NCBI GenBank assembly: GCA_026874595.1
Contig: CM049316.1
Location: forward strand, 19,677,839-19,741,838
Source of the DNA: Sipunculus nudus
Taxonomy: Eukaryota > Annelida > Sipuncula > Golfingiida > Sipunculidae
Reading direction: 5' to 3'
DNA length: 64,000 nucleotides
The stretch's first letter is position 1; each line of letters opens with the position of its first letter. Shown one piece after another: positions 24,994 through 52,364 of this stretch. Both the position numbers and the translations under genes were made by a program. The notes beneath the pieces are model-generated. The model did not search any database. It was not told the origin of the DNA and saw only the letters and a list, made by a program, of their open reading frames with translations.

Positions 24994-24996
<3 letters not shown>

Positions 24997-29588: not shown

Positions 29589-29987
29589 CATATCCAATTT
29601 TCTTTACACTGTAAAAACACATCGGTTAAAATCAACTGAAAAAACAGTTGATTCTAACCGATTCAATAGGTCAAAATAGCCCTAACCTAATTATCAGTTG
29701 ACATAACTGTTTTAAGATCAGTAACAATAACAACTGATAGGATCAGTTAACATTTAACTGATATTTCGGTTGACAGCAACTGATATTTTAGGTTGAATAT
29801 AACTGATTTATTAATAACCTATTTCAATAGGTTATCTTCAAACGGTTAAATTTAACTTATCTCTACAGTTACATGTAAAATATTTAACCGGTGGCTTTCT
29901 GGCTAAAAATATGACAATTTTTGCTAGAAGCGAACGAATACATTTGATTTACTTGATTGGTATATAAATTATATCTTACATTAACCA

Positions 29988-29990
<3 letters not shown>

Positions 29991-30021
<31 letters not shown>
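29991..30021. repeat. (TA)n microsatellite
   Basis: TA tract inside the CACT-ended transposon. Confidence 0.95.
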
Positions 30022-30025
<4 letters not shown>

Positions 30026-30039
30026 TATCAATATCATTT

Positions 30040-30043
<4 letters not shown>

Positions 30044-30099
<56 letters not shown>
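30044..30099. repeat. (TA)n microsatellite
   Basis: Second TA tract, about 20 bp beyond the first. Confidence 0.95.
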
Positions 30100-30100
<1 letters not shown>

Positions 30101-30454
30101 CCTTAAAAAGGATAAGGTCACAAGCAAAACTTAAAACCAAATTTACTAAATGTATCAAGCTAGGCCACCTTTATAATTTTAACAATAGCAAAATCAACCA
30201 CACTAAATTCCACATTCTTCATTTTTATGAAGAAACAACTGCTTCATCAGCAAAGTTTTATTATTTGTTAAAATAAATGTACACAACTTGTTTACATACA
30301 TGATCTATATATGATAAGATGTGGGTATCATATATATTAAGATAAAAGAAAAATGGGAAGTTATATCATATATTGATGTTTCTATATACATGCACTTTAA
30401 AAAATATATGCACACCTTCACACCATCACTCACTATTAGGTAAAAAACTGCAAA

Positions 30455-30720
30455 TGTGGATGGCTTCACACTCGATGTGAATGTGCCCACCTTCACTCCC
30501 CGTAAGATATCAAGAAGAAATGAGGTTGGCTTCACTCAGTATGTGCCTGCCTTCACTCACTGTTGGATATCAACAGCAGATGTGGCTGGCTTCACACTCG
30601 ATGTGAATGTGCCTACCTTCACTCACTATAAGATATCAAGAGGTTTGGTTGGTTTCACTTAGTATGTGCCTGCCTTCACATGCTCTTAGACCTCGACAGT
30701 AAATGTGACTGGCCCCACAC
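30455..30720 (+). repeat. minisatellite inside the transposon
   Basis: About four units of roughly 62-68 bp with GGCTTCACACTCGATGTGAA, TGTGCCTACCTTCACTCACT and AAGATATCAAGA, starting near 30461, 30529, 30588 and 30650. Alternate units are more alike than neighbours (first and third share CACTCGATGTGAATGTG), suggesting a higher-order dimer. Confidence 0.7.
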
Positions 30721-31473
30721 ACAAAATGCATGTTTCAATCTTCATTTGATAACAAAGCTCAGATGACTTCAAGAAGATAATAAATCTGGTCATATCCGTC
30801 AAGAACAACTGTAACCTATTATAGATAATCTTAAAACATTTCACAAACACTGCAACGGGTTATAAATAATCATAAAACATATAATAAATGTAAAGTTTAT
30901 GACAATCAGCTCAGCGCTGGTTTTCTTTTTGCTGGGATTTTTGTTGTTGTTTTTTTTTCATGCGGCATGCGTTTTGGCACTTTGCTTTGGTACTTACACC
31001 ATGACGAATTTCACTACGTGTCTTCAGCTCTTCATACCTAATATCTGGTCTTCTGCGTGTGCCATAGAGTATTCACTAATCCTGAAAATTTAGAACAATA
31101 TTTATTTAGATTAAGTGTGAATCGTTCCATATTTTTTTATATTTCAGTAAAGCAAGTTACCTACGAATCAGTATGTTTATTTAGATGTATATCTTGCCTA
31201 AATGACATGGAAATATGAAACCCATGGGTCATGACGCTCCATAAAATATTATAGTCTATCATTCACACAACTGTTTGTCACATTTTTGGAGAAATGTATT
31301 GCATATTTAAGGAGGATTTGAATATTTTTTTTGCATTAACCTTGATTAAATTTTAAACTTATACCCAAAAATCAGATCCTTAAGGAAACTACAGATTTCT
31401 TCTTTGCAAATATAACACATAATTAATCCCATTGTTGCAACTATTATTGGTGAACTTTCTGAGAAGCAGTTAC

Positions 31474-31582
31474 CTTCAAGTCCCAGTATCTGGTTAAAAA
31501 CTTTGCCCGGAATCCAATGGGTTTCGCAAGTTGCTTTATGAGATCGTCTGTTAGACAAACGCTTCTTCATCAATCCAGTTCC
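31474..31582 (-). other. possible orphan exon inside the transposon
   Basis: On the minus strand a CTTTTTCAG acceptor is followed by 109 bp open in one frame (TGLMKKRLSNRRSHK near its start) and a GTAACT donor. I recognise no domain. It may be captured host sequence, a remnant of a transposase gene, or chance. Confidence 0.2.
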
Positions 31583-32239
31583 CTGAAAAAGTGAGAAATT
31601 GGTTTCACACTTTGGCTATGTTACACCATAATGCTAACTAATATCTACCTCAATACTACAAAGCAGAAACTGCAAACAAGATATGATTGAATCTCAAACG
31701 TCTTATCGAATCCAATAAACATTGGAGAGATCAAAGGAGGCAGGTGAGGCAGCCATAAACGAGATGCATACAATTTGACAAGCTTGTAAAATGTTGAAGG
31801 AAAAAAACAGCAGTACAAACATGAATCTTAAAATAATATGAAAAATATATGTGAATCATTATAGTGCCCAGTGAACTGAGCAATAATTGTGTTGATATTA
31901 TATTATGTCCAGAAGTTAACAAGGGTAATTAAAAGATTTAAGGAGGGGAGTTCATGTGACTTAGAGGGGTCAGTCTTTGTCCAAAAGGAGGGGGTGTCCA
32001 CCGGCATTTTACAGGATAAGTCACGCTGAATCAAGCTTAAATAATATGAACTTGACCAAATGCTCAATTTTCAATCTGCAAAGTCATTAGATGTAATATT
32101 TCTTCAAATATCATACATTTATAGAAGGTTATAGGCTCCATGTTTGTGATTTCAATGGCAGTTGGTAGATGTAACCTGTGGTCATCTTATATTGCCCACA
32201 TGTCAGCAAAATGTCCAAATACGGAGTGTGTATAATAGG

Positions 32240-32255
32240 GGGGGGGGGGGGGGGC
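32240..32255. repeat. poly-G run
   Basis: Run of about 15 G inside the transposon. Confidence 0.9.
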
Positions 32256-32846
32256 TGATGGTGCATGCACACGTGTTTGGATTAGCGAGTCATATATGTC
32301 CAAAGTACACAATATATGTCAATATAAAAACACAAAATATGACACAATTATATATTTCTTAACCTAACCCCTTTTGAATGAGAAATTAAGATCTTTTCAT
32401 AGTCAACCTGCTGAAAATGTTATTCCGCAAGTAATTCATCCCTTCCTTACCAACACTTCGGGATCAAGGGGCCCACAAGCATTTCACCTCTCACTCTGAA
32501 ACTTGTACATACATGTACTTTAAGCTACTCGCATTATTTTATGTAAAATGTTTAAATCCAAAGTAAAAATGAACAAATACTCACCAGGCTTGTACAGTGA
32601 TACGTGTACTTGTGCATGGGTTCCTTCCAAAGACTGTCGCAGGAATGCTCAAACGTCCCGCTAAAATGTGACCTTTGACACAATCGTTGCTGGTTGCAGC
32701 CCCTTCTGGTGTAACATTATCACCATACAAACCGTACTGACTGCACCGGGTAATTTACTTGCTCGGATGTGTGAGATCACAAGTTGACAGCACACTTTGT
32801 ATACGCACACTGCATGTACACAGGGTGTAAATTCCTACCTATTGTC

Positions 32847-32898
<52 letters not shown>
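32847..32898. repeat. (TA)n microsatellite
   Basis: TA tract with one CA interruption, inside the transposon near its right end. Confidence 0.95.
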
Positions 32899-32902
<4 letters not shown>

Positions 32903-33376
32903 AAATGCGATGAACCACAATTATGTAGGATAATTCTGAAAATAAGATTATTAATAAGATCACCCAGGTATTGTGCTTTTGTCATCATTAAGTTGTTTGA
33001 GATTATTAAACATTGATCAGTTCAGTGTAAATAAGATCGACCTACATCTTATACTGGCACAATGAATGATCCACATTTCAACAGTGTATAGCATGTGTAT
33101 TACATTAACTGATATCAACAGTACCCCTGTTAACCGACCAATCAGTTAGAAGCCAACTGATATTTCAGTTAAAATCAACCGATTTCAGTCAACCTATTTA
33201 ATCGGTAACCATTTTAACTGATGTGTTTTAAGAGTGTAGCAGACCTGTTCTACATGAGTTAATGTGCGATGTATGTGACTTAGGCTTTTAATGTGAACAT
33301 CTTGTTAATAATTACTTACCCGCAGAGTGGAGTTGTTGTTATTATCTCTGCAGACCTTCTTGCCCAAACAACCCCG

Positions 33377-33692
33377 TCATCCCCCATATCCCCATCTGTA
33401 CCATCTGCCAAATCCGCCCATCTGTCTGTCCCTGTTGCTCTCCGCCTGTGTTTTATTTAGGAAGGCCTGACACGCCTCTCGACAAGCGGCAGCTCTCGCC
33501 GGGCCAGACATCGTGCAGTTAATACGAACCTTCTGCGGATAGCACGTCGTACCCGCCGGCGTTGTCATGTTGCATACACACCTATTTCCAAATATTACAC
33601 TTAACTTCATTCGGTTCTTCTCTCAATAAAGCTTGTTCGCGTTTCAGGTTTCAAGTCCTATTTCAAGCCCCAAGAATCAGTCAGAGCTGAAT

Positions 33693-33771
<79 letters not shown>

Positions 33772-35229
33772 TACACAAGCGACTAGACCCACTCACTCGA
33801 TGGCGCGTTGGATGGTGAGTTATCTCAACCACTCGATTTTCTATAATTTACGGAGCAGGTCCACTACGGGACAAACAGGAGTGCAGCCTAGTGTGCTACG
33901 ACTGGTCCTGAGTCTAGTACGAGCTTTTTTGAGCTTATTTCGAGTTAGAGCGAGTTCAGCAGGACTTCAGGGGGAAACAGTTGTGGATGACCTAAATTCC
34001 TTGCATAAAAAATCTGCATTGAAAGACTTCATCTTTATACCTCGGCTACAAATAGCCTTCCACCAGAGGTCGTTTCTCCTTAAAAGAATCCCATTCCATT
34101 TGGGTATTATTGGGATGACCAGGACTACTTGCCTCAACTGTCAAACTTTAAATCATTTTTTTTTTTATTTATATGAATCACCTTTTTACATTTCATATGC
34201 CCATGCTTACAAAATATTACAGATTCCGTTTTTACCACGAAAACATCCATGTTATTTTCCTTTATTTGCCATGAAACAATTATTATCCAGCGTATTTTAA
34301 CGGATAGCATTACCCATTTTACTACAATTCAACCTTCGCCGCTGGTGAATTTAGAATCCCAGATGCATTTTGGGATCGAGTTTCCATACCTTAAGCCTCC
34401 TACATTTGTCGTCCAAATTCGCACAGAGTGGGTTATAAATAAAGGGCATACTCCATTGCGAGTTGATCTGACCATAGGCATACTACGATTTGAGCCATGA
34501 AGGATGCAGAACCCGGCATTTTCTTTCAGTAATATATTAAGCTTGTTTTGTTCAATTTACCAAAAGGTTTATTGGAAAAGTGGCGAGGAGGGGGTCGGGG
34601 GGGCTACACCCCCCGAGATATATATGTAGGTCGATATCAAAACCAGTACCTGGTCCGAAATATCTTATATTTTCCCATTCTAAATAATAGAAGTACTTGC
34701 AATTATTTTTAAAAAAAACAATACCAGTATCAACACCATAGTTCTATGTATCGTAATTTGATAAACTGTTATAACCGAGTAATAGGGATGACACACACCC
34801 CAGACCCACAATAATGGTACACCGAACCTGGTTGATACCTGTCATGATGTCCGAAACCGGAATGGAACTCTGCATATGTACATAATACATAGTTAAGTAA
34901 GCAAAAAATTGAGACAATTACCTAAACCAAAAAAAGTAAGAGATAAAAAAAAAAATACAGTTAGCTGAGTAACTGGTGCCTGACCGTGTATATTAAATAT
35001 TTCTCTCATGGTTGAAGCTCCACCGCGTGCACTTAAAATTGGTTTATTTGAAGTGAAAGGTAGCTAGAGACTTGTTTTATCGAAAGCCTTGCAAATTTGG
35101 AAATTACGTAGCATCTGGTCTTGGCCATCGTCTACGGAACCATCCTGATCCAAAGAAACCGTCCGCTTGCGCAGTCAAGACCGCTACTCCAACAAGACAC
35201 ACCAGCAAGACTACCTTGACAGAGGGCAT
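33377..35229 (-). CDS. secreted cysteine-rich peptide, copy 1 (two exons seen, truncated)
   Basis: Exon 1 (35229-35108) encodes a 22-residue signal peptide with a VVLLVCLVGVAVLTAQA core, then a cationic aromatic start, DGFFGSGWFRRRWPRP. A GTAATT donor splits a Thr codon, and exon 2 resumes at 33581 after an AG acceptor in a weak pyrimidine context. Exon 2 carries CVC, TTC, INC and the CREAC helix-like motif, then the stop at 33379-33377. The homologous exon of copy 2 reads on for 19 more codons to a conserved GTAAGT donor, and this copy keeps that donor at 33319. The exon lengths (122 and 262 bp) are identical in both copies, so one nonsense codon is the main lesion. The product would be about 108 residues. 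I do not recognise the family. The features suggest an antimicrobial or other secreted effector, which is inference. Confidence 0.55.
33701..33773. repeat. (TA)n microsatellite
   Basis: TA tract of about 70 bp in intron 1 of peptide copy 1. I see no long TA tract at the matching place in copy 2. Confidence 0.95.
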
Positions 35230-36290
35230 CGTGCGGAATCTTGATGAAAAGATGTTAGAACAAGCCATATAGCAGTCGTATAATGCATAATTATTAGAAG
35301 CAGAGACTAAAATACAGAATGCCAAACTCTTCTCATTTACAGGAGAAGTTTCGGTTACACCCTTCCACCGGATGTCGTTCGACTAAAACAAAACCTCTTT
35401 ATGTTAGGGATTGTGGGATGGCCGGGACCACTTGTCCTAGCGGTCAAACTTGCCCTAGCTTTAGTCAAAGATTAAATAATCAGTCAGCTTCAGCGGCGGA
35501 TCCATAAATTCCAAAGCAGTAGGGCGCTAATAATTGGCTGGTGGCTTCTTAAATGTTTTCTTTTGTTAATTTTTATTAATATATGTATTTCACCATTTTT
35601 TTCCTTAATAGTTTATTATAGATACATGGGTGAGGGTATATAATAAGGTGTTGCTCTATTTTCCCATATTGGGAATTTTTGCAAATATGCAATGTAAAGA
35701 GGACATTTTAAAGCAACTGTTACAGAATATGAGGCTTTTCTGTTCCATAACTACTTCTTTCTTAAATTGTTTTGCGAATGTAATTTCAGGGGTTCTTCGG
35801 TGTTATGTACTAGCAGAGTGTAATAACGGAAAGACTTCATTTCTCGTTATAGAAATATTGGTATGCTATCTATATATGGAGTAAATCACAAAGCTGTTCA
35901 TTAATATTCTCAACATATTAATTAGAAAGTAATGATCAGTGGATAATTTTATAATATAATTGCTAGGAAATAAAAATCTGAAAAATAAAAATTGATCAAG
36001 AATAAATGGGAAAAGAAATAGAGAAAATGAGCGATGTTTTAGCTCAATGGAAAACAATGATTATTCAACATTCAGAACATTAGAAAGAAGTCCCTAATGC
36101 GCCAGTGTTTAATGTAAAATAAACTCACCTCCAGCGACTTCACCCTTTATCCGGCCTCTTCAACTAAAGTCCAATGATTGCAGGAAATATACTGCTGTTT
36201 GAGAGAATGCCTCCTACCAAAATGACTTAACAATAAACCCTTCACTATGTGTTTTATAAAGTATTTAACACGTTCAACGACCCGTGAATA
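35230..36290. other. flank upstream of peptide copy 1
   Basis: The first 280 bp match the region upstream of copy 2 (47611-47800), including the reverse complement of AAGCCATATAGCAG, a possible core-promoter area for the minus-strand gene. In both copies an in-frame ATG lies 39 bases upstream of the chosen start. The rest is AT-rich with no gene seen. Confidence 0.4.
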
Positions 36291-37231
36291 TAATCATTCC
36301 TCAACAGTTTACAGACAAGTTTTCAAGTTTGTTCGGCCACGATACAATACTTTTTATAAGTCTGAGTCTGGTAATTTTCGCATTAAAGAAAACTTTTTTT
36401 TTTAGAATTTCTCAGGGGGACTTTGTCAAAGTGCCATGACCCAGAGACAACTTATATACGATAATGAGAATAAGGATAAAACTTTTCAGTTCCGAAATTA
36501 TATCATAAGCAATCTTTCACGCTTGAAGCGACGATCGTGCGTACACGTCAGTGTCATATGATGCTCAAGTGCAATATGGATTCAGAGGGCTAATGTTCAT
36601 GGTGCTTGGATATCTTTTTTAACCTTTTTAGGACTTCAAGTCATTTTATTTTGCGGTCTAGACTTCCTCCCATGTGCGGACTTGATGACCTTTGTAAAGT
36701 TTTCTCTTTAGTCTGACTATTTTTGATCCCCTCCCCCTCTATACAAAATCCCGGATCCGCCCCTGCAAATGACTCATCGCTTTGCATTAACACAAATAGT
36801 GTTAAATCATTCGCGATATTTGTTGACTCCCTTCATCCTGTAAGGTGACTTCAGTCCTGTCGGTCAATCGGCATCTGTTTTTCCACTATGGAAACCAATA
36901 TATACATATATGACATCACAATGATAACAATGGTATTTAGGTTCGTTTCTGGGTTAAAGGTACATAAACAATTACAATCATAGGTGTGCAATTCGCTATT
37001 AGTTCATTTCGGTTGAATAAAAAATTTTGTTTAATACTGCCCAGAAGACCTGGCGCACCAACCTACGATCTTCAATTCACCAGTTTTATAGTTTGTTTTG
37101 GTTTCCTGTGCGAGTAAACACAGTCCACATGTTTCTCCTTAGCATATGAAGACTTAGTAGCCAGAGGTCATATACTGCTCTTGCGCTAAAACTCTCGAAG
37201 AACCACCGGATGGAAGCCTGAAAAATCTTGA

Positions 37232-37340
37232 TTGGTGAAGTTGTGCGGTAGTAGTTGTACGTTTGTGAAGTTGTACGGTAGTAGGTGTACGGTTGTGAAG
37301 TTGTACGGTAGTAGTTGTACGGTTGTGAGGTTGTACGAGA
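37232..37340 (+). repeat. 30-bp minisatellite
   Basis: Three to four units of TGAAGTTGTACGGTAGTAG followed by TTGTACGGT, with few differences between units. Confidence 0.85.
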
Positions 37341-37361
37341 TGGCGTGCGCGCTATGTTCGT

Positions 37362-37551
37362 TTTGCGCCAATGCTCGCACCAAGGTGCAAGTTGTTTTCA
37401 ACTTTGTTTACAGGTGAAAGCAAACGGTTTATAACGATATATTGCAAGATGCTCCATTGTTTTGCGCCAATGCTCACACCAAGGTGCAAGTTTTTTTCCC
37501 ACTTTTTTGTACAGGTGTAAGCAAACGGTTTATAACGAAATGTTGCAAGAT
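37362..37551 (+). repeat. tandem duplication of about 94 bp
   Basis: Two adjacent copies containing TTTGCGCCAATGCTC, CACCAAGGTGCAAGTT, TACAGGTG and AGCAAACGGTTTATAACG, differing by several substitutions. Confidence 0.8.
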
Positions 37552-37659
37552 ACGTCAGGTATAGTTCACATACCTAGTATGTGATAGGTTCCTTTTTTCC
37601 AGTAGGCCGCTAATGTTCATATAATCTTAAGGTTACATGTACTTCATGATTTTCCCATC

Positions 37660-37674
37660 ATAAATGAAATTTCA
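37660..37674. repeat. left target-site duplication of the LINE
   Basis: ATAAATGAAATTTCA, repeated exactly at 43742-43756 after the LINE tail. The first bases overlap the AAATA-type tail in the right copy, so the safe core is ATGAAATTTCA. Confidence 0.8.
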
Positions 37675-37770
37675 TACTTCCGGTTGACATGTCGAGGTGA
37701 TAGGACGGGAGTGTGAGGTCTCCGGAAAGAATTACATAAAAAAGTGAAAAGACCGAGATGATATAGTGTT

Positions 37771-38754
37771 ATGGATACCAGACAGAAAAGAAAACAAAAA
37801 GAGCAACCAGAGGGCACGTTGGATAAGTACATCATTTGTGAAACAGAGACCAGTGGCGCAGGTAAAACTCGCAAGGCAAGTGTCACTGAGAAAAACATGG
37901 CCTCCCGTGCAGACCACAAGGAGAGAGCACCTAAAGGTGAGCGTGAACATGACATTGAGAAAAAATTGAATGACTTTAAAGATACGCTGTTGGGGGCAAT
38001 AGACACTCTCAGAAATTCTTTGACAACTGAAATAGAAGTAAAGTTCAAAGTGTTAAAAGAAGATACAAACGCGAATGTGACAAAAATAGTAAAACTTGAA
38101 CAAAGCCTTGAATTCTCCCAGAAAGAAAACGCACACAGATGAATTGACAGAGGAAAACAAAAAAATGAAAGAGGAGTTGGCAAGAGTCAAGACATTTCAG
38201 AGTAAAATGGAGAAAGATTTTGAAGAAACCGAAAGACAATTGCTTGATAAAATGAATGAAGCAGAGCGGTATTCAAGAGAATTTAATGTTAGGGTTGCCG
38301 GGCTAACTGAAACTAATGGAGAAAACTGCGTGAAACTGGTGGCTCAAATAATATCTGAAAAAGAACTGATGGAAAGAAAATCGGTGGAGGAAATAGAGAA
38401 CCTGATTGAGAATGCCCATCGGACAGGCAAACGACTACCAAATAAGCAGAGAGGCAAATAATTGCTAAATTTGTGAAAAGAACTGATAGAAATACAATAG
38501 TGAAGAATGCAAAGAGTCAGCTGAATAGAGTAGAAGGCGCCAAAATTAAAATGTTCGAAGACCTTACAAAACCAGATTATGAGCTAAAGAAAAGAGCGCA
38601 ACCGCAGATTGATGCTGCCTATAATGACCAGAAGAAAGCCGTGTTCCGCCGAGGGAAACTAATAATAAATGGACACGTGGTGGCAATACAAGGCAAAGCT
38701 GGAGCGCGACTCGAAATGATAAGCCAGCGGAACGTGGCCCAAGCCCTGGATTGA
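37771..38754 (+). pseudogene. LINE ORF1 protein, frameshifted
   Basis: Start ATG at 37771; a basic, charged N-terminal part leads to a coiled-coil-like stretch (KKLNDFKDTLLGAIDTL). The frame shifts near 38100 to a second segment (38096-38461) with more coiled coil and VRVAGLTETNGENC, the start of an RRM-like domain, and ends at a stop. A return to the first frame near 38465 carries AKFVKRTDRNTIVKNAK and the C-terminal region ending at 38754. Known role in L1 elements: RNA-binding chaperone of the retrotransposition particle. At least two frame breaks inactivate it. Confidence 0.85.
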
Positions 38755-39386
38755 AGAATCGCCTAGAGACTGAACGGCCAAGGACCACACGCATGAATGC
38801 CCATGACTGCAGCTCTACCTGAGACGAGTTTGGGTGCAATGTTTTTGGACCTTGTTTCTTTATTTTCAGAGTCGTAAAATTGACTCGGTTAAATATTTAA
38901 TAATAAAGACTGAAATAATAGATACAATAACAGTTTATTTTTCAGATCAATAAGAAGACTTGAAAGTGCTGTAAAATAGTTATTTAAAATGTGTTTCATC
39001 TTGTTCTGTTTAATTATGTAAAATATCGGTGATCAGATCGAGGCCTCGCTGGTAATGTTTAACCGGATTACAGTTTTTGCCGTTTACTGTGTGGATAGTG
39101 ACCGAGCCTCTATTGTCGCTCATTACCAAGAGGTACGTGAGTTGTGAAAGACTAAGGGTTAGGTACTGTCATATTTGTGTGCTTTATAGTAATATGTCTG
39201 TATTTGTTATTTATGTTGATGTACATGTTACAACCATGAGTATTGTACGGGCATCATTTAGTATGTCATTAATTAGTTCACCTTTTGGTATATCCACCGT
39301 CACCTTTTATACGAAGGTTCGACCATACATTACGTTATTGGTAAAAAATAATATGTCACGAAGATATATTCCTTGAATTTACAGAA

Positions 39387-40196
39387 GCGACCCTCAATAC
39401 CAGAGGGATAAATAATACAAAGAAAAGGAGGACAGTGTTTACATCGATGAGGCGACAAAAGGCGAATGTTATATTTCTACAAGAGACGTATAGTAGTAAA
39501 TCATGCGAAGTACAATGGCGTAATGAGTGGGGAGGTCATATACTTTATAACCATGGAAGTAATCATAGTAGAGGTGTTGCTGTTTTATTCAAACCGGGAT
39601 TAGATTATCAGATTATAAGAATTAATATTGATGAAGAAGGAAGAATACTCATAGTAGAAACATTAATTCAAGATCAAATTATATATTTCTGTAATTTATA
39701 TGCCCCAAATGAAGAAAGTAAACAAATTGCTTTCTTTAAAAGGGTAAAAAATAAGCTTTTAGAATTTAGAGTGGATGAAGATAAAAATCTGATTATAGGG
39801 GGTGATTTTAATATTGTATTTTGTAATATTGATAAGGATGGAGGAAGAGAACAAATTAAAGTAAAAGCAGTAGATATAGTGAACGATCTGTCAAACTCTT
39901 TTAATTTAATTGATATATGGAGAACTCGGAATGAAACAACAAAAAAGTTTACCTGGAATCAAAAAGAACCTGAAATTCATTGTAGATTAGACATGTATTT
40001 CATTTCTAGTGCTTTACAAGATTTTGTAAATGATTGTGACATTATCCCAGCTGTAATGACAGATCACTCTGGTGTAGTTTTGAAATTTGAAGATACGAAG
40101 CAGACTGCAAGAGGGAATGGGTACTGGAAATTTAACAATGATTTATTAAATGACCCTCAATATGTTGGTATGATAGAAAATAAATTTGATGAATGA
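39387..40196 (+). pseudogene. LINE ORF2, endonuclease part
   Basis: Frame opens upstream of ATLNTRGINNTKKRR, the usual start of an L1/Tx1 endonuclease. Catalytic signatures are present: LQETYS, LYAPNEES, GGDFNIVF, RLDMYFIS and TDHSGV (Asp-His pair). An in-frame TGA at 40194 and a second stop at about 40221 separate it from the reverse transcriptase, although the frame is otherwise the same. Known role: nicks target DNA to prime reverse transcription. Confidence 0.88.
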
Positions 40197-40223
40197 TGTA
40201 AAGAATTGGCAAGTACAAATTGA

Positions 40224-41968
40224 AGGGAAAAATGGGAGTTATTAAAATATTTTATTGGAAAAGAAACCATAGTTTACTCAAAGAAAATTAAGAAGAAAAT
40301 AAATGATCATTATGATCAATTAGCTTCAAGATTTAAATATTTAGAGAGAGAAAACACAGATACTGAAGAATACTTCAAGCTAAAAGAAACACTGAACTGT
40401 TTAGATCTTAAAAAGGCTGAAGGGACAATTATTAGAGCCAGAGTTAGATGGAGAGAATGGGGAGAGAGGAGTTCAAGGTATTTTTATCAGCCAGAGAAAA
40501 GAAATGCAGTAAAGAAACATATTAGAAAACTTAAATCACAGGACACTGAAGACACAATATCTGATAATAAAGAAATACTATTAACAGTAAAATTATTTTA
40601 TGAAAATTTGTACAAAAGTAGATATCGAAAAAATGTTTTATCTGAAGGTCAAATAGTTTTTGATTACCCAAGTCTGGTCAAACTTACATATAAACAAAAA
40701 ATAATATGTGAAGGTCTACTTACTCTCGATGAATGTGAAAAGGTAGTTAATTCCATGAAAAATAATAAATCCCCTGGAAATGATGGTTTATCCATAGAAT
40801 TTTATAAATGTTTTTGGAAAAGGGTGGGGCCCTTGTTAGTTGATTCATTCAACGATACATATCATGTAGGGGAAATGTCACCATCTCAAAGACAGTCAGT
40901 TAAAAAACTCCTAGAAAAAAAAGGGAAAGACAGATTACTTATTAAAAACTGGCGCCCAATTTCTTTATTGAATAATGATTATAAAATTGCATCCAAAGCA
41001 ATAGCAGAAAGAATAAAAAAGTTCTGGCACATGTAATACATATTAACCAGCATGGCTTCGTAAACGGGAGATATATAGGAGAAGCAGTCAGGACAGTACT
41101 TGATTCTATGGAATATTTAAATATGCGTAGACACCCAGGATTATTAGTATGCGTTGATTTTGAAAAAGCTTATGATTCATTAGAATGGGAATTTATGTTA
41201 AATGTATTAAAACAAATTAATTTTGGAAATGATTTGATATCCTGGGTAAAAACATTTTACAATAATATCGCTTCATGTGTAACAAATAATGGATACAGTT
41301 CAGGCTATTTCAAAGTTGAGAGAGGTGTTCGACAAGGGGATCCCCTCTCACCATACTTATTTATCTTAGCAATAGAACCCTTAGCAGAAGCAATAAGACA
41401 AAATAATCAGATACAGGGCATTAAGGTAAATAAAGAAATAAAGCTAAAGTGTATATTGTATGCAGATGATTTGACAGCTATAATGAAAGATGGTGAATCT
41501 TCAGACAAATTATTAAGTCTGATTGAAGCCTTTTCCAGAGTTTCAGGCCTTAAAATTAACCAAGAAAAATCAGAAGCCATGTGGCTTTGTTCAAAGGCCA
41601 ATTGTAAGGAACAACCAATAAATGCTAACTGGGAGACATCTGTCAAAATATTAGGAATTAATATCTCACATGATCAAAATAAAATGATAGATCAGAATAT
41701 TCAACCAAAACTAAAAGATGCTGAAGAAACACTTAATGCTTGGAGAAGAAGAAATTTAACTTTAAATGGAAGGATTATGTTAGCAAAGTCATTGGGTTAT
41801 TCTAAGTTTCAATATGTAGCATCAGTAGTAGATATACCAGAAAATTATATAAGGGAAGTTGACCGTTTGCTGTTTAAATTTATATGGAAAGGGAAAAAAA
41901 GAGGACGGATAAAAAGAAGGATTTTAATGGATGAATATGAACAAGTGGACAGAAAATGGTTAATGTAA
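40224..41968 (+). pseudogene. LINE ORF2, reverse transcriptase part
   Basis: From 40224 the frame runs through a linker to NNKSPGNDGLSIEFYK and NWRPISLLNNDYKI, and stops at 41036 because of a frameshift in an A-rich run near 41013. The next frame continues with HGFVNGRYIGEAV, VDFEKAYDSLEW, RGVRQGDPLSPYLF and the catalytic ILYADDLT. All polymerase motifs are recognisable and the acidic residues are kept, but the frameshifts prevent a single protein. Confidence 0.9.
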
Positions 41969-43580
41969 AATGTATGATTGAGGCCCAAAGGATAAATTGG
42001 GTGAAAAGATATTTATATGGAAATAATATCCCATGGAAATCCCTAGTGGATTCACTGTGTAATCATTATGGAGGGTTTTCACTCCTTTTACAGTGTAACT
42101 ACTCTAAAGCAATATTACATAAACTACCATCCTTTTATAGAGAAATTTTTAAAATATCGAAAACTGAGAAGAAAAGGATCAAGAAATTATTTGGAATAAT
42201 TGCAAAATAACTTTTAATGGGAAACCTTTATTTATTGAAAATATGAAAAATGCAGGTTTACTTTTTATATCAGATTTGGTAGAACAAGGTAAAATAATAC
42301 CTTTTCTAGAGTGGAGGAATAGAGGAGTTAAAGTGAAATATTACATGTCTTGGAGAAGTATAATTAGTCAGGTATGGAAAGCCTTGAGGTTTATAAATTC
42401 TGCTGAATGTTCTAACAATGATGAATGGATTTTGAAATACACCAAGACAAATCTCTCAGAGGTTACCTCAAAGCAATTGTATAAAGTTTTATTAGATAAC
42501 ATCCCAAGGGACATGAAAAAATTAATGATTTATATCAGATTTGGTAGAACAAGGTAAAATAATTCCTTTTCTAGAGTGGAGGAATAGAGGAGTTAAAGTG
42601 AAATATTACATGTCTTGGAGAAGTATAATTAGTCAGGTATGGAAAGCCTTGAGGTTTATAAATTCTGCTGAATGTTCTAACAATGATGAATGGATTTTGA
42701 AATACACCAAGACAAATCTCTCAGAGGTTACCTCAAAGCAATTGTATAAAGTTTTATTAGATAACATCCCAAGGGACATGAAAAAATTAATGATTTATAT
42801 CAGATTTGGTAGAACAAGGTAAAATAATTCCTTTTCTAGAGTGGAGGAATAGAGGAGTTAAAGTGAAATATTACATGTCTTTGAGAAGTATAATTAGTCA
42901 GGTATGGAAAGCATTGAGGTTTATAAATTCTGCTGAATGTTCTAACAATGATGAATGGATTTTGAAATACACCAAGACAAAGCTCTCAGAGGTTACCTCA
43001 AAGCAATTGTATAAAGTTTTATTAGATAACATCCCAAGGGACATGAAGAAATTAATGATATACAAGACGGTCAGTGGACAGCTATATATAAATTACCCTG
43101 GATAACTTCCAACGATAAAAAACTCCAAGATTTCCAATACAAGATAATCCATAGGATATTGGTTTTGAATGATTGGCTTTATAAATGTAAATTAATTGAA
43201 AATGAAAAATGCACATTCTGTGCCAATGAGAGAGAGACATTAGAACATTTCATATATGAGTGATAAAGCAGACAATTTTGGGAAGAATTAGAAAATCATT
43301 GCAAGTTTTCAACAGTGAAAGATTGGAGTCGAGATGTAAAAAAAATATTATTTGGTATTATTAGAGATATAAACTTAAATAAGATCATAAATATCATTAT
43401 TTTGCTTGGTAAGAAATACTTATATGAGTGCAGGTATTATGGAACAAAACCAAAGGTCACAATATTTATGCATAAAGTTAAACGGTATCATGACATAGAG
43501 ATAGAGATGGCGAAGAAAGGTAATAAATTGACTGAGACTAGAGAGTTGTGGTCATGTCTAAACTTATCACAAAGTTGATA
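41956..43580 (+). pseudogene. LINE ORF2, C-terminal part with zinc knuckle
   Basis: After another frame change near 41960 the frame gives RINWVKRYLYGNNIPWKS, typical of the L1/Tx1 connector. A 265-bp triplication then disrupts it. Past the triplication a frame carries CTFCANERETLEHF near 43211, the CCH-type knuckle common at the end of these proteins, followed at 43261 by a stop codon. The last frame (43315-43578) may be the remaining C terminus. Confidence 0.8.
42271..43060 (+). repeat. 265-bp tandem triplication inside LINE ORF2
   Basis: Units begin CAGATTTGGTAGAACAAGGT at 42271, 42536 and 42801. The first two differ by about one base and the third by a few (for example CTTTGGAG for CTTGGAG). 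Since 265 is not a multiple of three, each junction shifts the frame and each unit appears as its own short open frame. The triplication is probably specific to this insertion. Confidence 0.92.
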
Positions 43581-43741
43581 TTTAGGTGACAATATTTCAC
43601 TCGTGTTGTATTTTTGATCCTTTTGTGCTATATGTTGTGCTTTTGTGTATTGAAATCGTTATGGTATTGTGTTATATGTAAATGTATATGAGATTGTATT
43701 GTTTTCTTTTGTTAAATAAATAAATAAAAAAAATTAAATAA

Positions 43742-43756
43742 ATAAATGAAATTTCA
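43742..43756. repeat. right target-site duplication of the LINE
   Basis: Exact copy of the 15-mer at 37660-37674, directly after the A-rich tail. Confidence 0.8.
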
Positions 43757-43867
43757 AAAGAATTATTATAGGTCAACTTTCTTAGTCGGCAGACCCTAGC
43801 TGTGAAATTATTACGCTTAGAGATTAGACAACGGGGGAAATTAGACAAACGTGCAGTATACCTATAA

Positions 43868-44100
43868 TTTTAACATGCTATCTGTGACATTCGGGTTCAA
43901 GTGTGTCCCAAAATGACAGCCCCATAAGCAATTTCGAGAACCTGCGGGAAATAAACACGTCAGGGTGCTCCACGGACGCGGAGATGTCACACGAAAGTAC
44001 TCCGTGGACAGCAACCAGGCGATATTCTAACTGCGGAGATAGTTTGGTGGAATAATAAATTATAGTAAGATAAAATGGAAATTTGTTCAATCATAATGTT
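43868..44100. repeat. duplicated block B, copy 1, distal part
   Basis: Matches 50400-50670 (GCCATCTGTGACATTCGGGT-like start, then AAACACGTCAGGGTGC and AGTACTCCGTGGACAGC). It continues the homology interrupted by the LINE-bearing insertion. Confidence 0.75.
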
Positions 44101-44130
44101 GATGTATATGACAGACTTTTTATAATGTCA

Positions 44131-45935
44131 ACACACATATGGTCTTTTAACAGAAAATGTGGTCGTTCATAATACTAATGATCGTTGCCGAATAATTCTA
44201 CAAGAAAATACAAAATTGATGACCATTTTTCTCAGTCAAAGGAAGGTTTATTCTCTGAATATGATACCATATAATAGAAGCACCTTGTGGTATTATGGCA
44301 TTATTCTCGCAATATGATGGTAACTCCGAGTGGTCTTATGGTATTATTGTCTAAGTATGATGTAATAAATCTTGTGGTTTATGGTCTTATTTTCTAAATA
44401 TGATGAAATAGAACCTGATGGTTTAATAGTATTCTCTGAATATGAAGAAGTAGAATCGTGTTTTCTCACAGTATTAATAATAAATATAGTGAAATAACAG
44501 CGTATGGTATTATAGTATATATATCTTAAACACCGTTAATGTTGCTGAAGCAATTGCTTGGTAATAGTAAAAGTCCCAATACATGTGAAACCTGTATGCA
44601 AGTCATTCATTATGTTGAAAGCTCCGTTGGCTCAGAGTACATTTTTTTAGGGTTTAGATTTGTAGCTTGCTTTAGTGTGTTTTAACATTTTATCGATTAT
44701 TCAATTGCCTTTATGCAACCGATAAGAGAATTATGCTGCAAATGTAAATTGCAACTAAGCATTCTTGGATATAAGTACATCCAGATAAGCATAAAATGTG
44801 GCGGGTTCATTACCGATGTCGTGAGGCTTGTTTCTCTCTGACGTTACCGCATGTCGGCCAGCACGTCCTGAATGCCCCATACTCACCTAAAATTAGACGA
44901 ATAAAAAAGGTTATGGAAAATAAACTATGGATCCGATTCAGGAAAGTCAACAAAGAATATTCATACATGCACAGTCACTTATGCACGAATGAACCTTGCA
45001 TTTTGGGCCGACTGAGTGAATGCAAATGCGTTTTTCGGGGAATGTCACAGAAGTGACCCCCCACCCCTTCCCCCACCCTCCTACATGGCGGAGGATTACA
45101 ATCATCGGAATGCAGATTTCTAGTTCTGGTCTTGTTATGTCATAAAATTTTCTTTATATTATAATGAACCTTGTGGTGACTTTAGACCAAGGCCACGGAA
45201 ATAGAATAAAAAGATGCTGCCCCTCATCAAAATAAGTTGAATTACCATAACAGCTTAACTGTCTAATTTGTAAATATGACACGAATTGTTCTTAAAAAGT
45301 TATACGTCACGGTCTCCTCGCATTATTAATGGAACACTTATTTATACTTTATAAAACATTGTAATCAGTGCAAAACCTGTCCAGCATATAGCATTTACTT
45401 ATATCTGCTTGCCACGTTGAAAGGTCGGTCTATCAAAAATGCTCATTATCTCAAGTAGTTTAGTTTTAAAGTGATTCTGCCACTTACCCAATATATTAAC
45501 CCTGCATATGCAAGCGAAACCTGTTGTACGCTGGTTGGGTACAGTTGATCACAACGGTCCCAATCGAGGCTGCACCGGGCGTGCTACATCTCTCTACATC
45601 AGATTTGACCCAGTAAGATATATCCGCCTAAAAGAATATAATACAAAATCGGTATCACAATTGAAGATAGGGCCACTCAACTTCCTTTGTGGCCACGCAT
45701 CGGAAATGCGTTTTTTTTTTTGTTTTGTCTTGAACTGTCGGGAACCATGCGAGGTGTGACTTAAGGAGGGGGGTGGGGTTATTTCGTATATTTAATATCG
45801 AATTTGACATCATTTCTCCTACCCATAATCGCAAAAAAAAAAAATTTTGTTTTACATGCTTTGATTGTTATAGGCTCATTATAACATACAATGCTATAAG
45901 GTCATAAGGATGGAGTCTAGTGCCACCACCGGTAA
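44131..45935. repeat. duplicated block A, copy 2 (partial)
   Basis: Matches 62040-63570 from GTGGTCGTTCATAATA through the minisatellite, the GTTTCTCTCTGACGTTACCGC region, exon 3 of the peptide gene and TCTCCTACCCATAATCGCAA. Most of the left half of block A is missing here. Confidence 0.75.
44250..44515. repeat. minisatellite in block A, copy 2
   Basis: About four to five diverged units with TCTGAATATGATG and GTGGTTTATGGT, homologous to that at 26110-26410. Confidence 0.65.
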
Positions 45936-47610
45936 TTTTTTGTTTAGCTTAGCGTTCACTAGCAGGTCTAGCAGGTTTTATACAATAGATGCCGACATTT
46001 ATTGTTATACAATAGATGCCGATGTGGACATCTTATAATTACTTACGCGCAGAGTAGAGTTGTTAATATTATCTCTGCAGAACTTTGTGCCCAAACAGCC
46101 CCACAATCCTCCGCAGCCCAATCTGAACCGTCCGCCAAATCCGCCCATCTGTCTGTTCTTGTTGATGTCCGCCTGCGTTTTGTTGAGGAAGGCCTGACAC
46201 GCCTCTCGGCATGCGGCAACTGTCGCGGGGCCAGACATTGTGCAGTTGATACGAACCTTCTGGGGGTGAGACGTCGTACCCGCCGGGGTAGGCATGTTAC
46301 AAACACACCTATTCCACAGATTTATATACTGAACTACATGCATTCCCTCCCTCAGTAAAGGTTGTTCGCGTTTTAGGTTTCAAGTCAATGCGTTTGTTGT
46401 ATAATTAACCTATTTTATGGCAGCAACAATTCTTAATTCAAGCCCTAAGAGTAAGTAAGAGTCGAAATGTGTTAATATATATTTGGTGAGTTATCCCGAG
46501 TACCCCATTTTCTCGAGTTTAAGGAGCGAGTACATTACGAGACAGACAATAGTGTAGCCGAGTGCGCTACGACTGGTACCGAGTCTAGTACGAGCTTGTG
46601 CGAGTTTATTTCGGGTAGCAGGAGTTCTGCATGACTTCAGGGGGAGGCGTTCGAGTATGCCCTGAATTTCATACAACATATCTGCCATGACTTCCTCGGC
46701 TTAACTTGTGTACAAATACACTACTATCAGAGGTCTTTTCTACAGAAAACAAACCTCTTCCAGTTGTGCATTATTGGGGTGACCGAGACTACTTGCCTCA
46801 ACTGTCAAATCCAATTTGTCCTGAATCAATTGTTATCCAGCGTATTTGAACGGACTACATCACCCTCTGCGTTACAATTATACCTACGCCGCTGGTGTAT
46901 TTAGAATCCCAAATGCAGTAGGGGATCGAATTTCCAAACCTACATCCCCTGACCTACTGATTCGTACCCTTGTGAGTCCGATCCTGCGCAGTGTGGGTTA
47001 TAAATAAATGGCATTAGGCGAGTTGATCCGACAATAGGCATACTACGATTTAAACTGAATGAATTAATGGGGGATGGTTCAAATCGGCGAAAACATGCAG
47101 AATCGGGCGCTTTCGTTCAGTATTAAGCTTGTATTGTTCGATTTCCCAAACGTTTATGTGGATGTGGATGGGGGGGGGGGGGGGGGGCTACACCGAGCCC
47201 TGAAATTTTAACGCATCTGATTAAGGAGAGATAGATATGTAGCTAAGGTCGATATCAGAACTATTCTCTAGCCGTCTTTTTACCCATTTTGAATAATAGA
47301 AGCACTAACAATTATTTTCAATAAAAACGAATTCCAATATCAACAATAATTGTATGTTACGTAATTATTATACAGGCAGCCGAGTAACTGGAGCCTGAAC
47401 ATATATTTGCACTGAAAATTGGTATATTTGAAGTGTAAGGTAGCTAGTGACCTGTTTATATCGAAAGTCTTACAAATTTGAAACTTACGTAGCATTTGGT
47501 CTGGGCCATCGTCTACGAAACCATCCTGATCCTGAGAAAAAACCGTCAGCATGCGCAGTCAAGACCGCTACTCCAACGAGACACACCATGACTACCTTGA
47601 CAGACTGCAT
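45496..47610 (-). CDS. secreted cysteine-rich peptide, copy 2 (three exons)
   Basis: Exons 47610-47489, 46308-46047 and 45627-45496 join in frame (GTAAGT donors, AG acceptors) into about 171 residues. Exon 1 is a 21-residue signal peptide (VVMVCLVGVAVLTAHA) followed by a Trp/Arg-rich mature start with GWFRRRWPRP. Exon 2 carries Cys domain 1: CVC, INC, the CREAC pair, then GC, GC and KFC in a Gly-rich tail. Relative to copy 1 the third Cys is Ser. Exon 3 carries a related domain 2 with CSTPGAA and VVINCTQPAYNRFR, then stops; the copy at 63.2 kb has two more Cys and no stop there, so this end may be decayed. Domains 1 and 2 share a C-x(n)-V-x-INCT core, suggesting internal duplication. Secreted and probably disulfide-bonded. 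No family is recognised; a role as host-defence peptide is inference only. Confidence 0.6.
47165..47187. repeat. poly-G run
   Basis: Run of G in intron 1 of peptide copy 2, interrupted once. Confidence 0.85.
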
Positions 47611-49700
47611 CGTGCGGAATCTTGATGAAATGATGTAAAAATAAGCCATATAGCAGAAATGCAGAATGCCAATCTGTGCTCATTTTTAGGAGCAGTTTTG
47701 GTTAAACCATTCCACAAGATGTCGTTGTACTCCAAACAAACCTCTTGCTGTTAGGGACTGTGGGATGGCAGGGACTAATTGTTCCAGCTGTCAAACTTTA
47801 AACTCAAAAATTTTTTACCTTCCAAGGAAACACCTGTTTACGTTTCACATGCGTATGGTTACAAAATATTACCTTTTCCATGAAGTCCTTAGCACAAACA
47901 CACATTTATTTTTTTTTCTTTTATTTTACCTTTCTGGTATCTCAGTAGCATAAATATTAATTTTCATGATCAACATTCAATTTCATATTTTTCATCATCG
48001 ATAGCACCTTTGGTTATTCTCTCAATTAACAATTTCCTTTGGATTTAAATCCATTTTCTTAATTACAGACTGTATATACAGATGAAAATCCAAGTCATGC
48101 AACACACATTTTATAATATCAGTAGGTGTTATCAACAGTACATTTATCTTTGCGTTCATCGGTGCCTTAAAAATTGCACATGTTATGATACTGATATATG
48201 TTAATAAATAGGAATATTAAGCCCAAGTGATATTTTATAACCCAACATCATATGTTTCCAACCTATACTTACCCTTAACGCACGATTTGCAACAGGCTCA
48301 ATCGATTTTACTGTTTGACAAAACACCCATTTATATTTTATTTGCCTTGACACAATTCTTACGGAACATGCCTGAACGGACACCATTACCCTCTTCACTA
48401 CATTTAAACCTAAACCGCTGGTATATTTAGAAGGCCCGGTGCATTGTACGTGGCAGAGTGTGACGCCCTCGAAGTCTGACCTGCAGAGTCGTACAGTTGT
48501 GCGTCCGATTCTACGCAGTGTGTTTTGACAATCAGACCAGCAAACAGACGTGTAAAAATCCCGCTTTACTGGATATATTTTGTTTGCATTTTTCATTTTT
48601 TTACACAAAATGGTTGAAATTTTGATTATAATAATATATAATTCAACCTATATGTTAACTAAACTTTGCCATTCATATACATTTTATATATATGTGTGTG
48701 TGTGTGTGTGTGTAATGTGAAACCTCGAGTCCCTGCAAGACTGTTAAAACCTTACAAATTAAACTCCTTTTGGGTCGAATTCGGATGTATGGAGATGTTT
48801 CGTTGGCCTCCAGCTAGTATTTCTATCGCTTAACCCGAAGATTGTCGCTTTAAGTTTTGGACAACAGTTGTGCACGGCCCGTCAATTGTGATTGGGCCGT
48901 GAGGACGAGATATACGTTAGTAATACAGGCAAGGCTGTTCCTCAGCAAGCACGATGACTCTGACGCTCGACTCGAGGTCATGTCTCTTTCATGTTTGGAT
49001 AAAAGCTGTGCACGCTCCATTAATCATACCAAAGGCCGTGATAACTAGTTATATAATTAATACTGACAAGGATCCTACTCATCAAGCGCGATGGTTACTC
49101 ACCTGGTATGTTTTTATCTGTTTGGCCAATTAATCACTCATGATCATGCATTTCTTTCTCGCCGACAAATCATTGATTCGAAATAATAAGCAATTAATAA
49201 ACCAAACATAATGGAATCCATTAGAGAGGCCCGTAAGATATGCCGCAAGCTGTGGCAGCTATTACAGTCGTCAGAGGGCACGAATTACTGCTTCAAATTC
49301 CTGTCAGGAATTGAGAACTTTGTTGCTGACTAGTGCGTTCTCCTGTGAAGTAAAGGACTGTTACTGCCTTTTAAAGAAGATCTGATGTGTTGAACTGTTA
49401 ATGATCTCATCCAATTATTTTATGATCTATGTGCTTTAATAGATGTATGTGGTCTTATTTAACTTTCCTGATTTATCTGATCTTTTTTGTGGTACTTATG
49501 TGCGTTTTTATTATTAATAAATAAATTTATTTTAAAAAAATGTTGTTCTATTACGCTAAGATTTGTGAGAACTAAAGAAAACATGTACAGTATTCATTGA
49601 TAATAATCAAGGCTGGAGAATATAATGAATATCGGTTATCTCGATCTCCGGTTGTGTCAAGGAAAATTCACTAGTCCCTTCGAATTCGACACAACGAGAG
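47611..49700. other. flank upstream of peptide copy 2
   Basis: Contains a possible promoter area matching that of copy 1, the diverged internal repeat near 48415, and a (GT)n tract near 48693-48712. No other gene seen. Confidence 0.4.
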
Positions 49701-49706
49701 TTTACT

Positions 49707-49709
<3 letters not shown>

Positions 49710-49771
<62 letters not shown>
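49710..49771. repeat. (TA)n microsatellite
   Basis: Perfect TA tract just before the TCAAGTTTGTTCGGCCA part of block B. Confidence 0.95.
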
Positions 49772-49774
<3 letters not shown>

Positions 49775-52364
49775 TACAGAGTACAAAATTATATGATCAG
49801 TCACCCAGGTCCTTGCCTGTTAAAGTGTTCAAGTTTGTTCGGCCATACGGAAACACTTTTCATAAGTTTGAGTAGCCATGTACCAGCGACACCTTATATA
49901 CGCAAAGAATGACAACAAACATAAAACGTTTCAGTACCTAAATTACATTGTGAGCAATCTTGAAGCAACGATCGTGTGAACACGTCAGTGTCATTTGTAG
50001 ACCAAGTTGTGGCTCTGTAGTAAACACAGACAACAGAGCCACAACTGTGTCTATGTCATATGATGCTCCAGTATAAAAGTGGATTCAGAGGGGGATGTTC
50101 ATGGTGTCTGGATATCTTTTTTCAACCTTTTCTGAATTTCATGTTCTTTTTTTGCGGTCTAGACTACCTCTCCTATTCCGGACTTGAGGAATTTTTTTTA
50201 AAGTTCTCTCTTTAGTTTGACCCCCTGCAAAGGACTCTTCGCTTTGGAATAACAAAAATAGTGGTAAATCATTCGCGATATTTTTGACAACTCCCAAAGA
50301 TGACATCTCAGTTCAGTCCTGTAGGCCAATGGGCATCTGTTTGTCCACTATGGAAACCAATATATACATATATGACATCACAAATATAACAATGGTATTA
50401 AGTTTGCCATCTGTGACATTCGGGTTGAAGTGTGTATCCAAAACGGCAACCCCATAAGCAGTTTCGAGAAACTGCGGAATATAAACACGTCAGGGTGCGA
50501 CACGGACGCGGAGATATCATACAAAAGTACTCCGTGGACAGCGACTATACAATAACTGCGGAGAGAGCTTGGTGGCAAGGAACGTATATCGTATGCTTTA
50601 GAACGCAATAAGGCTTCTTGAGCCTAACATTATAGAAAGACGAAATGGAAATATGTTCAATCAAAAAGTTGATGTATATTACAAACCTTTAAAACCAGCC
50701 GCATCTTTCACAATGCCCAAAGACCGAAAATAGTATTTATATCTGAATTGTTATGCTTTAGTGGTGGCCGTCGAGTGGGATGTCCCTGTCAGTTGTAACT
50801 TTTCTTCACGACATGCAAACTTGACTTTAAACGATTTGACTGTCCTGTATCCAAGAAATCTTCCGATTTCCTCAAAAGTGGCTTAAATAGACTAAAGGTT
50901 GACACAAAGTACGGAAAACAGTTCTAAATAGACAAACAGATGTAAGAAATCTTAAATATGGGTTATATGTACCGTATTTTTTCTGATTAAACGCCCGATA
51001 AATACCCCGCCCCTTTTTAGGCAAGGGGGATGGTCACTGTAGTCAACCCCCCCCCCCATTCAGAGAATAATATTTATATGTTGCAAATAAAATAATAATA
51101 ATAATGTATATAGAGTTTGCTAAGAATTATCTTATTTAATCCCGGTTTAGAATTAACTTAAACTTAAAACATGACACCTTATCCTCTAAAAACCGTTGTT
51201 ATTTGCAATATGATTATATAAACCTGATATGTGTCATACTGACGGTAATATATTTGAAATGCATCATATTATCGTACAGACGATACAAGGTATATATATA
51301 TAAAGGTGTGTGTAAGTCCCCCCTGATGGTAAATTGACGCCATTGGGGAAATAACAGCAAGGCATTTTGCTATCGTTAACAATTATCCGTCCGCGGAGCT
51401 ATCAAGACTATGTACCTTGAGTATCATGTGGCTATTCCGTTAACTGTGTACAGCATGCGTATGATCAATGTTGTATACTAGTAATTTATTCCCCCTGTGA
51501 TGACTAAGTCTTAATGAATAATTTGCCATGCCTTTGACAAGCTTATATATGTGTTAACAGATACATTACTGTCGACACGTACATGGGTTGCAGATGAGTA
51601 AGGAAGGTTGTCAGTGTTGTCGGGCTCTTGAAGGCTAAGGCTTTGGAAGCTTGGTGAAGTAATCTTAGATAAGCAGGTGTATTCCTATATACACATTCAT
51701 ACACATAACATTCATACACTATATACACATAACCTATATACACATTCATTGACTGACAGGAGACACCTAAATTACCCGATTAAAGTAGCTAAAAACTGTA
51801 ATGTATTTTGTAATTTGGTCGGCAATCATTAAATGAACAAAAGCCGAAACTCTTAATATTCTAGTACACGAAATGTCTCATAAAATTACATATTGATACG
51901 ATTTATTTTAAAGTACGTGAATACCATTACAAGCGCCTATGTCACTTTGAAGAAATAACTCGATCACGAGTACTGAGTGTTACTATACAAGAGTACTCAC
52001 TGGTACGAGTGATTTTGGACCCATCTCTATATGCAACACAGAGGCACGTACACCCTCATACACACACAAAAACACGCGAGCAAGGATAAATTACTTTGTG
52101 TGGAAGTGAGCTGCAAATGATAAAAGAAAACAAGCATTTGCTACCAGTTTTTTTCGACATGCTTTAGTGGCCTAATACTCGTGGAAATGTACGAAAGAGA
52201 GAGAGAGAGAGACATGAAGACTTGGGCCATCGGTAGTCAATACCAAATTATTTGGACCGTGGAAGAGTTGACAATAGTGATGAGCAAGGTTTCTATTGTG
52301 CATCGTGGTAATTAATAATACTTTCCCTGCTATAGTTATATATTCAAGCAGTGAAAAATCAAGC

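Follow-up and report, generated by a model that had tools for sequence, protein, structure and literature searches.

The 64,000-nucleotide stretch of Sipunculus nudus DNA analysed here (C11:19677839-19741838; hereafter the window) carries a real but unnamed animal gene, gene A, which is predicted to encode a small, positively charged, disulfide-rich secreted protein. Gene A lies on the minus strand and consists of three exons of 122, 262, and 132 bp (window 47610-45496), joined in phases 2 and then 0. The original prediction of a three-exon gene had the coordinates, the phases, and the lengths of exons 1 and 2 exactly, without stating the strand. The predicted product of 171 aa comprises a signal peptide, a Trp/Arg head, a CVC module with eight Cys, and an AW module with two Cys. 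The exons, and a donor-like site that follows the stop codon, are as follows.

47489..47610, minus strand: gene A exon 1, 122 bp; signal peptide MQSVKVVMVCLVGVAVLTAHA and cationic aromatic head DGFFSGSGWFRRRWPRPNA; donor GTAAGT, phase 2
46047..46308, minus strand: gene A exon 2, 262 bp; CVC module, 88 aa including the junction codon, 8 Cys; phases 2 to 0; acceptor AG, donor GTAAGT
45496..45627, minus strand: gene A exon 3, 132 bp including the stop TAA; AW module, 43 aa, 2 Cys; acceptor TTTTAG
45482..45487, minus strand: donor-like GTAAGT 3' of the gene A stop, just after TAA

The head contains the motif GWFRRRWPRP and has 4 Arg, 2 Trp, and 2 Pro among its 20 residues. If cleavage after HA is assumed, at a site placed by eye, the mature protein of 150 aa has a net charge of +12, a pI of 9.7, 4 Trp, 10 Cys, and six N-glycosylation sequons. 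An exon related to exon 1 is present in four further copies and in the relative D, and exon 1 encodes a hydrophobic N-terminus in A, A', B, B', and C (by eye) and in D and E (hydropathy scan). The sequence thus supports the earlier proposal of a secreted, Cys-rich family with a cationic aromatic head. Structure prediction for exon 2 from a two-row alignment gave a strand, a second strand, and a helix with CxxxC at a mean pLDDT of 48.3; because of this pLDDT of 48, the predicted fold carries no weight.

Intact and broken copies of gene A

We searched the organism's own genome (1.4265 Gb, 153 contigs) for relatives of each exon. The exon 2 query gave 10 matches at E <=10, six of them with E <1e-24 and four with E 1.0-3.4; three of the four weak matches, at C11:72 Mb (E 1.0-2.2), turned out to be true relatives. 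The remaining one, at C1:5.33 Mb (E 3.4), differs in Cys layout and was set aside by eye. The exon 1 and exon 3 queries gave five matches each. Further copies and the duplicated block to which two of them belong are located in the window as follows.

35108..35229, minus strand: copy B exon 1, 122 bp, frame intact; donor-side sequence GTAATT
33320..33581, minus strand: copy B exon 2, 262 bp; donor GTAAGT; in-frame TGA at 33379-33377
63199..63327, minus strand: copy C exon 3 (AW module); extent as matched, frame continues past 63199
12115..52104, no strand given: block of about 40 kb that recurs at C15:15795096-15825755 and carries A/A' and B/B'; coordinates converted by hand

A second locus with the same exon lengths and splice sites had been predicted. 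Copy B does have the exons of 122 and 262 bp and the GTAAGT donor of exon 2, but it is not an intact gene: exon 2 is interrupted by the TGA, and no exon 3 is found, both window matches to exon 3 below E 0.01 belonging to A and C. Copy B is therefore a broken copy. Its partner on contig C15, B', carries no stop in exon 2 and includes exon 3, with nine Cys in total (seven in exon 2 and two in exon 3). Exon 3 had also been expected in a third locus, and there it recurs as copy C (63327), whose exons 1 and 2 lie past the window end at C11:19744441-19744322 and 19742945-19742685. Both head Trp are lost in copy C.

Relative D is located on C11 about 8 Mb from A. It aligns with A at the DNA level at all three exons (E up to 0.001) and contains at least four coding exons, which are a head, a CVC, an AW whose tail is Pro-rich, and another CVC. 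The A-D match agrees with the predicted boundaries of exon 2 to a few bases, covers part of exon 1, and at exon 3 includes ≈35 bases of the upstream intron. Three more blocks, from the 5' flank and intron 1 of A, fall on a single stretch of D; these look like an interspersed repeat, and the part from intron 1 is found on many contigs.

On C15, the ≈40-kb block may represent a genuine second locus or a wrongly placed haplotype. Aligned pieces longer than 1 kb are 93-96% identical to the window, and shorter pieces vary more. Near copy B, stretches of 1.6 kb (window about 26989-28587) and 3.6 kb (about 29606-33237) have no C15 match, and the 1.6-kb stretch corresponds to where B' has exon 3. Within C15, exon 3 of A' (C15:15801689) and of B' (C15:15810163) differ by a dS of 0.04 and a dN of 0, compared to a dS of 0.40 for their exon 2. 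Such near-identity of exon 3 beside a diverged exon 2 is suggestive of gene conversion affecting exon 3 on C15. An L1-type non-LTR retrotransposon with endonuclease and reverse transcriptase domains occupies window 37674-43742 on the plus strand, and its 3' part contains a 265-bp unit three times at 99% (42264-43059). The C15 copy of the block lacks this element, whose insertion thus probably postdates the duplication or haplotype split.

Elsewhere in the window, exons of an alpha/beta hydrolase gene lie at 2108-6265 on the plus strand. The Abhydrolase_1 match at 4168-4356 (E 5e-6) passes the cut-off, and that at 2108-2425 (E 6e-4) is below it. We take this gene, including 5960-6265, to resemble valacyclovir hydrolase (BPHL). 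A faint trace of a Pao retrotransposon peptidase was detected at 53461-53739 on the plus strand (E 0.0005, below the cut-off).

Selection on gene A

Judged by substitution ratios, exon 2 of gene A is under purifying selection, with a dN/dS of 0.17-0.20 against A', B, and B'. The A-A' comparison gives a dS of 0.10, a dN of 0.020, and a dN/dS of 0.20, and A-B' gives 0.49, 0.085, and 0.17, respectively, and third positions account for 22 of the 38 differences in that pair; A compared to the broken copy B gives a dN/dS of 0.19. Higher exon 2 ratios are found for A-D (0.42), A-C (0.73), and B-B' (0.72), and exon 2 of C gives 0.57-0.84 against A, A', and B'. The family is thus partly decaying, since B is broken and C has lost its head Trp and shows these raised ratios. 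For exon 3, A-D (30 codons) gives a dS of 1.07, a dN of 0.15, and a dN/dS of 0.14, and A compared to A', B', and C (36 codons) gives 0.39, 0.53, and 0.66, with at most nine differences each. Exon 1 of A gives 0.50 (A'), 0.21 (B), 0.25 (B'), 0.75 (C), and 0.51 (D). The close-copy ratios of exons 1 and 3 are higher (A-A' 0.50 and 0.39), with few changes behind them.

A and A' have all 10 Cys in common, and over GSGWFRRRWPRP their head does not differ from that of B'. A search of both strands of the window for CxC..C..CxxxC..C gave a single occurrence, compared to a mean of 0.05 in 40 Markov shuffles, two of which had one occurrence. This result and the exon 2 ratios of 0.17-0.20 agree with the original claim that the structure does not reflect chance.

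Two module types and the end of gene A

The family alignments comprise eight hand-chosen members, with the broken copy B excluded, and six Cys of the CVC module are invariant in all eight aligned sequences. Exons 2 and 3 had been thought to encode related Cys domains. This relationship found no support in profile-profile comparison of CVC with AW (hhalign), which returned probabilities of 0.13% and 0.15%. In a profile scan of the fetched stretches at i-E <0.001, 13/13 CVC rows (12 exons) and 12/12 AW rows were on the transcribed strand, where each profile was built from six sequences that match by construction; weaker rows, above i-E 0.001, fell on both strands. Where exon phases could be read, CVC exons run from phase 2 to 0 and AW exons from 0 to 2. 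With the phase-2 donor of AW exons in the relatives, successive CVC-AW pairs could in principle be spliced to one another without loss of frame.

The AW exon ends in phase 2 at a donor-like site in the relatives, GTAAGT in A', B', and D and GTACGT in C. In gene A, the TAA begins 11 bases upstream of the donor-like site, so that the protein would end at TAA with or without further splicing. In A' and B', the donor-like site, if unspliced, itself provides a stop. D has a further CVC exon in matching phase downstream of its AW exon; by contrast, tblastn and profile searches of the fetched stretches found no further CVC exon, or exon 4, near A, A', B', or C. As no such exon was found nearby, A, A', B', and C look like one-repeat forms of the family. 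Conserved stretches 3' of gene A exon 3 were considered as coding and rejected, with no common open frame in the three copies compared.

An array of CVC and AW modules at C11:71.79-72.26 Mb

An array of 34 CVC, 31 AW, and 3 signal-peptide exons is located at C11:71.79-72.26 Mb. A CVC module from the 72-Mb region, used as query, gave 43 matches at E <=10, 34 of them in the array (C11:71.787-72.254 Mb), where all 34 are on the minus strand and without stops; the nine outside it are A, A', B', D, C1:74050184, and four weak ones. Of the 30 matches to an AW module query, 27 fall in the array, and the others are at C11:75379354 (plus strand), C1:74049202, and C3:11129977. The array count of 31 AW exons adds to these 27 four from the profile scan, which covered fetched stretches only. 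AW exons of the E and F type may be undercounted, because the AW query found none of these four. The signal exon query gave four matches, three of them in the array. The three CVC modules at 72 Mb that the exon 2 query had matched keep the six invariant Cys and have loops rich in Lys, Gly, and Met.

Read in transcription order, the array consists of a signal exon with 9 CVC and 6 AW, a signal exon with 10 pairs, and a signal exon with 15 pairs. CVC and AW alternate in 61 of 64 neighbouring positions, whereas 10,000 shuffles averaged 32.5 and never exceeded 48. The three exceptions lie at the start of the first group, outside the fetched stretches, where three expected AW exons are missing from the listed matches. 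This alternation shows that the CVC-AW pair is the unit of duplication. The pattern is not perfectly regular, since some CVC domains of the array apparently are split over two exons (the E matches at 9143 and 9575). We infer that each array group may encode one very long modular protein, and that the window gene is a one-repeat, strongly cationic offshoot of such proteins. However, the same alternation would be expected if CVC-AW pairs had been duplicated as separate genes, and signal exons too diverged for the signal-exon query would escape detection. A hydropathy scan found no signal-like open reading frame directly before the second CVC of E, and hydrophobic reading frames detected upstream of the third CVC of E and in H bore no likeness to the signal exons.

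Two further sites lie outside the array. A lone distant CVC-AW pair is present at C1:74049202-74050381 on the minus strand (E 6e-5 and 0.006), its modules ≈0.9 kb apart, in the same order and on the same strand. A lone AW exon at C11:75379354-75379461 on the plus strand is 92% identical to the query, and no CVC is nearby among the 43 listed matches.

Comparison with known families

The Cys spacing had been described as unlike that of defensins, big defensins, macins, mytilins, and myticins. Searches gave no significant match in Pfam or the PDB sequences. At family cut-offs, none of the 24,736 Pfam-A models matched the A protein, the eight-member module set, or joined units. The best Pfam match of the whole A protein was DUF2116 (E 2.7); for the eight-member module set the best E was 0.034, and the four families listed included no defence family. 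Among PDB sequences, the best E values were 0.73 for A, 0.54 for the CVC profile, 1.3 for the AW profile, and 0.21 for a joined array unit, all at chance level. Sub-threshold Pfam matches (DUF2116, RET_CLD4, and others) and weak PDB matches (gp41, antibodies, RNase MC1, and others) were taken as chance, and von Willebrand type C, considered for CVC plus CC, gave no Pfam match. Motif strings of the A protein and descriptive searches gave no match in the open-licence literature. Judged from Pfam, the PDB sequences, and this literature, the family appears to belong to no known family.

Pfam models exist for defensin, big defensin, and macin. Defensins of the CS-alpha-beta type have the Cys order C..CxxxC..C..CxC, in which CxC comes last. 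In contrast, the invariant CxC of this family is N-terminal and precedes CxxxC in 8/8 aligned members, and no Pfam cut-off was passed. Like gene A, macins and defensins, which are disulfide-stabilised alpha-beta AMPs, are cationic and disulfide-rich in the part of PMC11767717 available to us, and a helix at CxxxC in A would be a guess. According to the same partial text, sea urchin strongylocins resemble gene A as cationic, Trp-bearing, Cys-rich peptides but have a six-Cys pattern, compared to 8 plus 2 Cys in gene A (PMC11767717). The crustacean arasins combine a cationic Pro/Arg-rich N-terminus with a four-Cys C-terminal region (PMC11767717, in the portion available). Gene A shares with arasins and type III crustins, so far as that portion describes them, a secreted product with a Pro/Arg-rich head joined to a Cys-rich part; unlike the four Cys of arasins, its Cys number 8 + 2 in two exon modules with a CxC..C..CxxxC..C core, and it has array relatives. 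The Mytilus CRP-I array follows C(X3-6)C(X1-7)CC(X3-4)C(X3-5)C, with all arrays in one final exon (PMC10138031, available in part). CRP-I knottin-like peptides, as presented there, are also clustered, secreted, and Cys-rich, with pseudogenes and multi-array members, but their C-C-CC-C-C order differs from the CxC..C..CxxxC..C order found here, where each module has its own exon.

Proposed function and alternatives

Our first choice, held tentatively and at somewhat less than an even chance, is that gene A encodes a secreted defence or mucosal effector. As part of this explanation, and with the same reserve, gene A would be functional and would represent a minimal form within a family of modular secreted proteins. 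In this proposal, the 72-Mb groups would be three very long proteins with 9, 10, and 15 CVC modules, and A, A', and B' would be one-repeat derivatives that terminate in the AW exon. Once the signal has been cleaved off, disulfides would stabilise the folded CVC core (CxC..C..CxxxC..C), and two stretches rich in Arg, Trp, and Gly would be exposed on it: the head at the N-terminus and the loop that precedes the last Cys. Both are Arg/Trp-rich in A, A', B', and D and Lys/Gly/Met-rich in E; the loop is likewise Lys/Gly/Met-rich in H, where no head exon was found. The A protein would then bind anionic surfaces, such as microbial membranes, wall polymers, or acidic mucus glycans, and act as a secreted defence or mucosal effector. 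Binding to anionic surfaces seems most likely, because of the net charge of +12 (pI 9.7) and the clustered Trp. The host-defence role proposed earlier is plausible.

The close rival, our second choice and a serious possibility at rather more than a third, holds that the whole family, A included, consists of cross-linking extracellular matrix, mucus, shell, or adhesive proteins, in which the Trp/Arg stretches would be cohesive or mineral- or polymer-binding segments and not antimicrobial ones. The alternating-module arrays with their Lys/Gly/Met/His-rich head and loops speak for it, as do the Pro-rich tail of D exon 3 and the odd count of nine Cys in B', which would leave one for an inter-chain bond. 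Because the distant relatives are arrays with Lys/Gly-rich loops, an extracellular structural role fits as well as defence; these relatives look structural rather than antimicrobial, which, like the lack of any known AMP match in Pfam or the PDB sequences, counts against the defence reading. However, A-D are short, and their charge and aromatic content are unlike those of the array. The odd-Cys argument fails for A (10), one CVC-AW pair of E (10), and D (16), where the AW exons of E and D were counted by eye. None of the quagga mussel byssal proteins in the available part of PMC6474901 appeared similar by eye, and a quagga byssal Dbfp12 query found no match in this genome, so that the byssal comparison may concern another lineage.

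It is improbable that gene A is a relic, a decaying duplicate without a product that persists through recent duplication. Copy B has a stop and no exon 3, copy C shows relaxed constraint, and the TAA of gene A starts 11 bases upstream of a donor-like site, all of which speak for such a relic. This interpretation is opposed by the exon 2 dN/dS of 0.17-0.20 against A', B, and B', by the intact splice sites, by the 10 Cys shared between A and A', and by a head that A, A', and B' share unchanged over GSGWFRRRWPRP. Another secreted role, as a gland toxin, pheromone, or fertilisation protein, seems slightly less probable still. A small, Cys-rich, tandemly duplicated product without known relatives would suit it, but exon 2 in A, A', and B' is constrained and not fast-evolving, contrary to an arms-race toxin or gamete protein.

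Within the preferred explanation of gene A as a secreted defence or mucosal effector, we consider a specific origin, which we regard as doubtful: an undescribed family of giant extracellular proteins with alternating CVC and AW exons would have shed one-repeat genes, and a change from Lys/Gly-rich to Trp/Arg-rich loops would have converted a module of structural material into a cationic defence protein that stands alone. Should the role prove structural, the window gene would still belong to a Cys-rich secreted family that has no above-cut-off match among 24,736 Pfam-A models. If single proteins of 9-15 repeats and a re-charged one-repeat offshoot do exist side by side, this genome would keep both ends of a transition from material to cationic effector, and the origin of a host-defence peptide would be directly testable in one genome.
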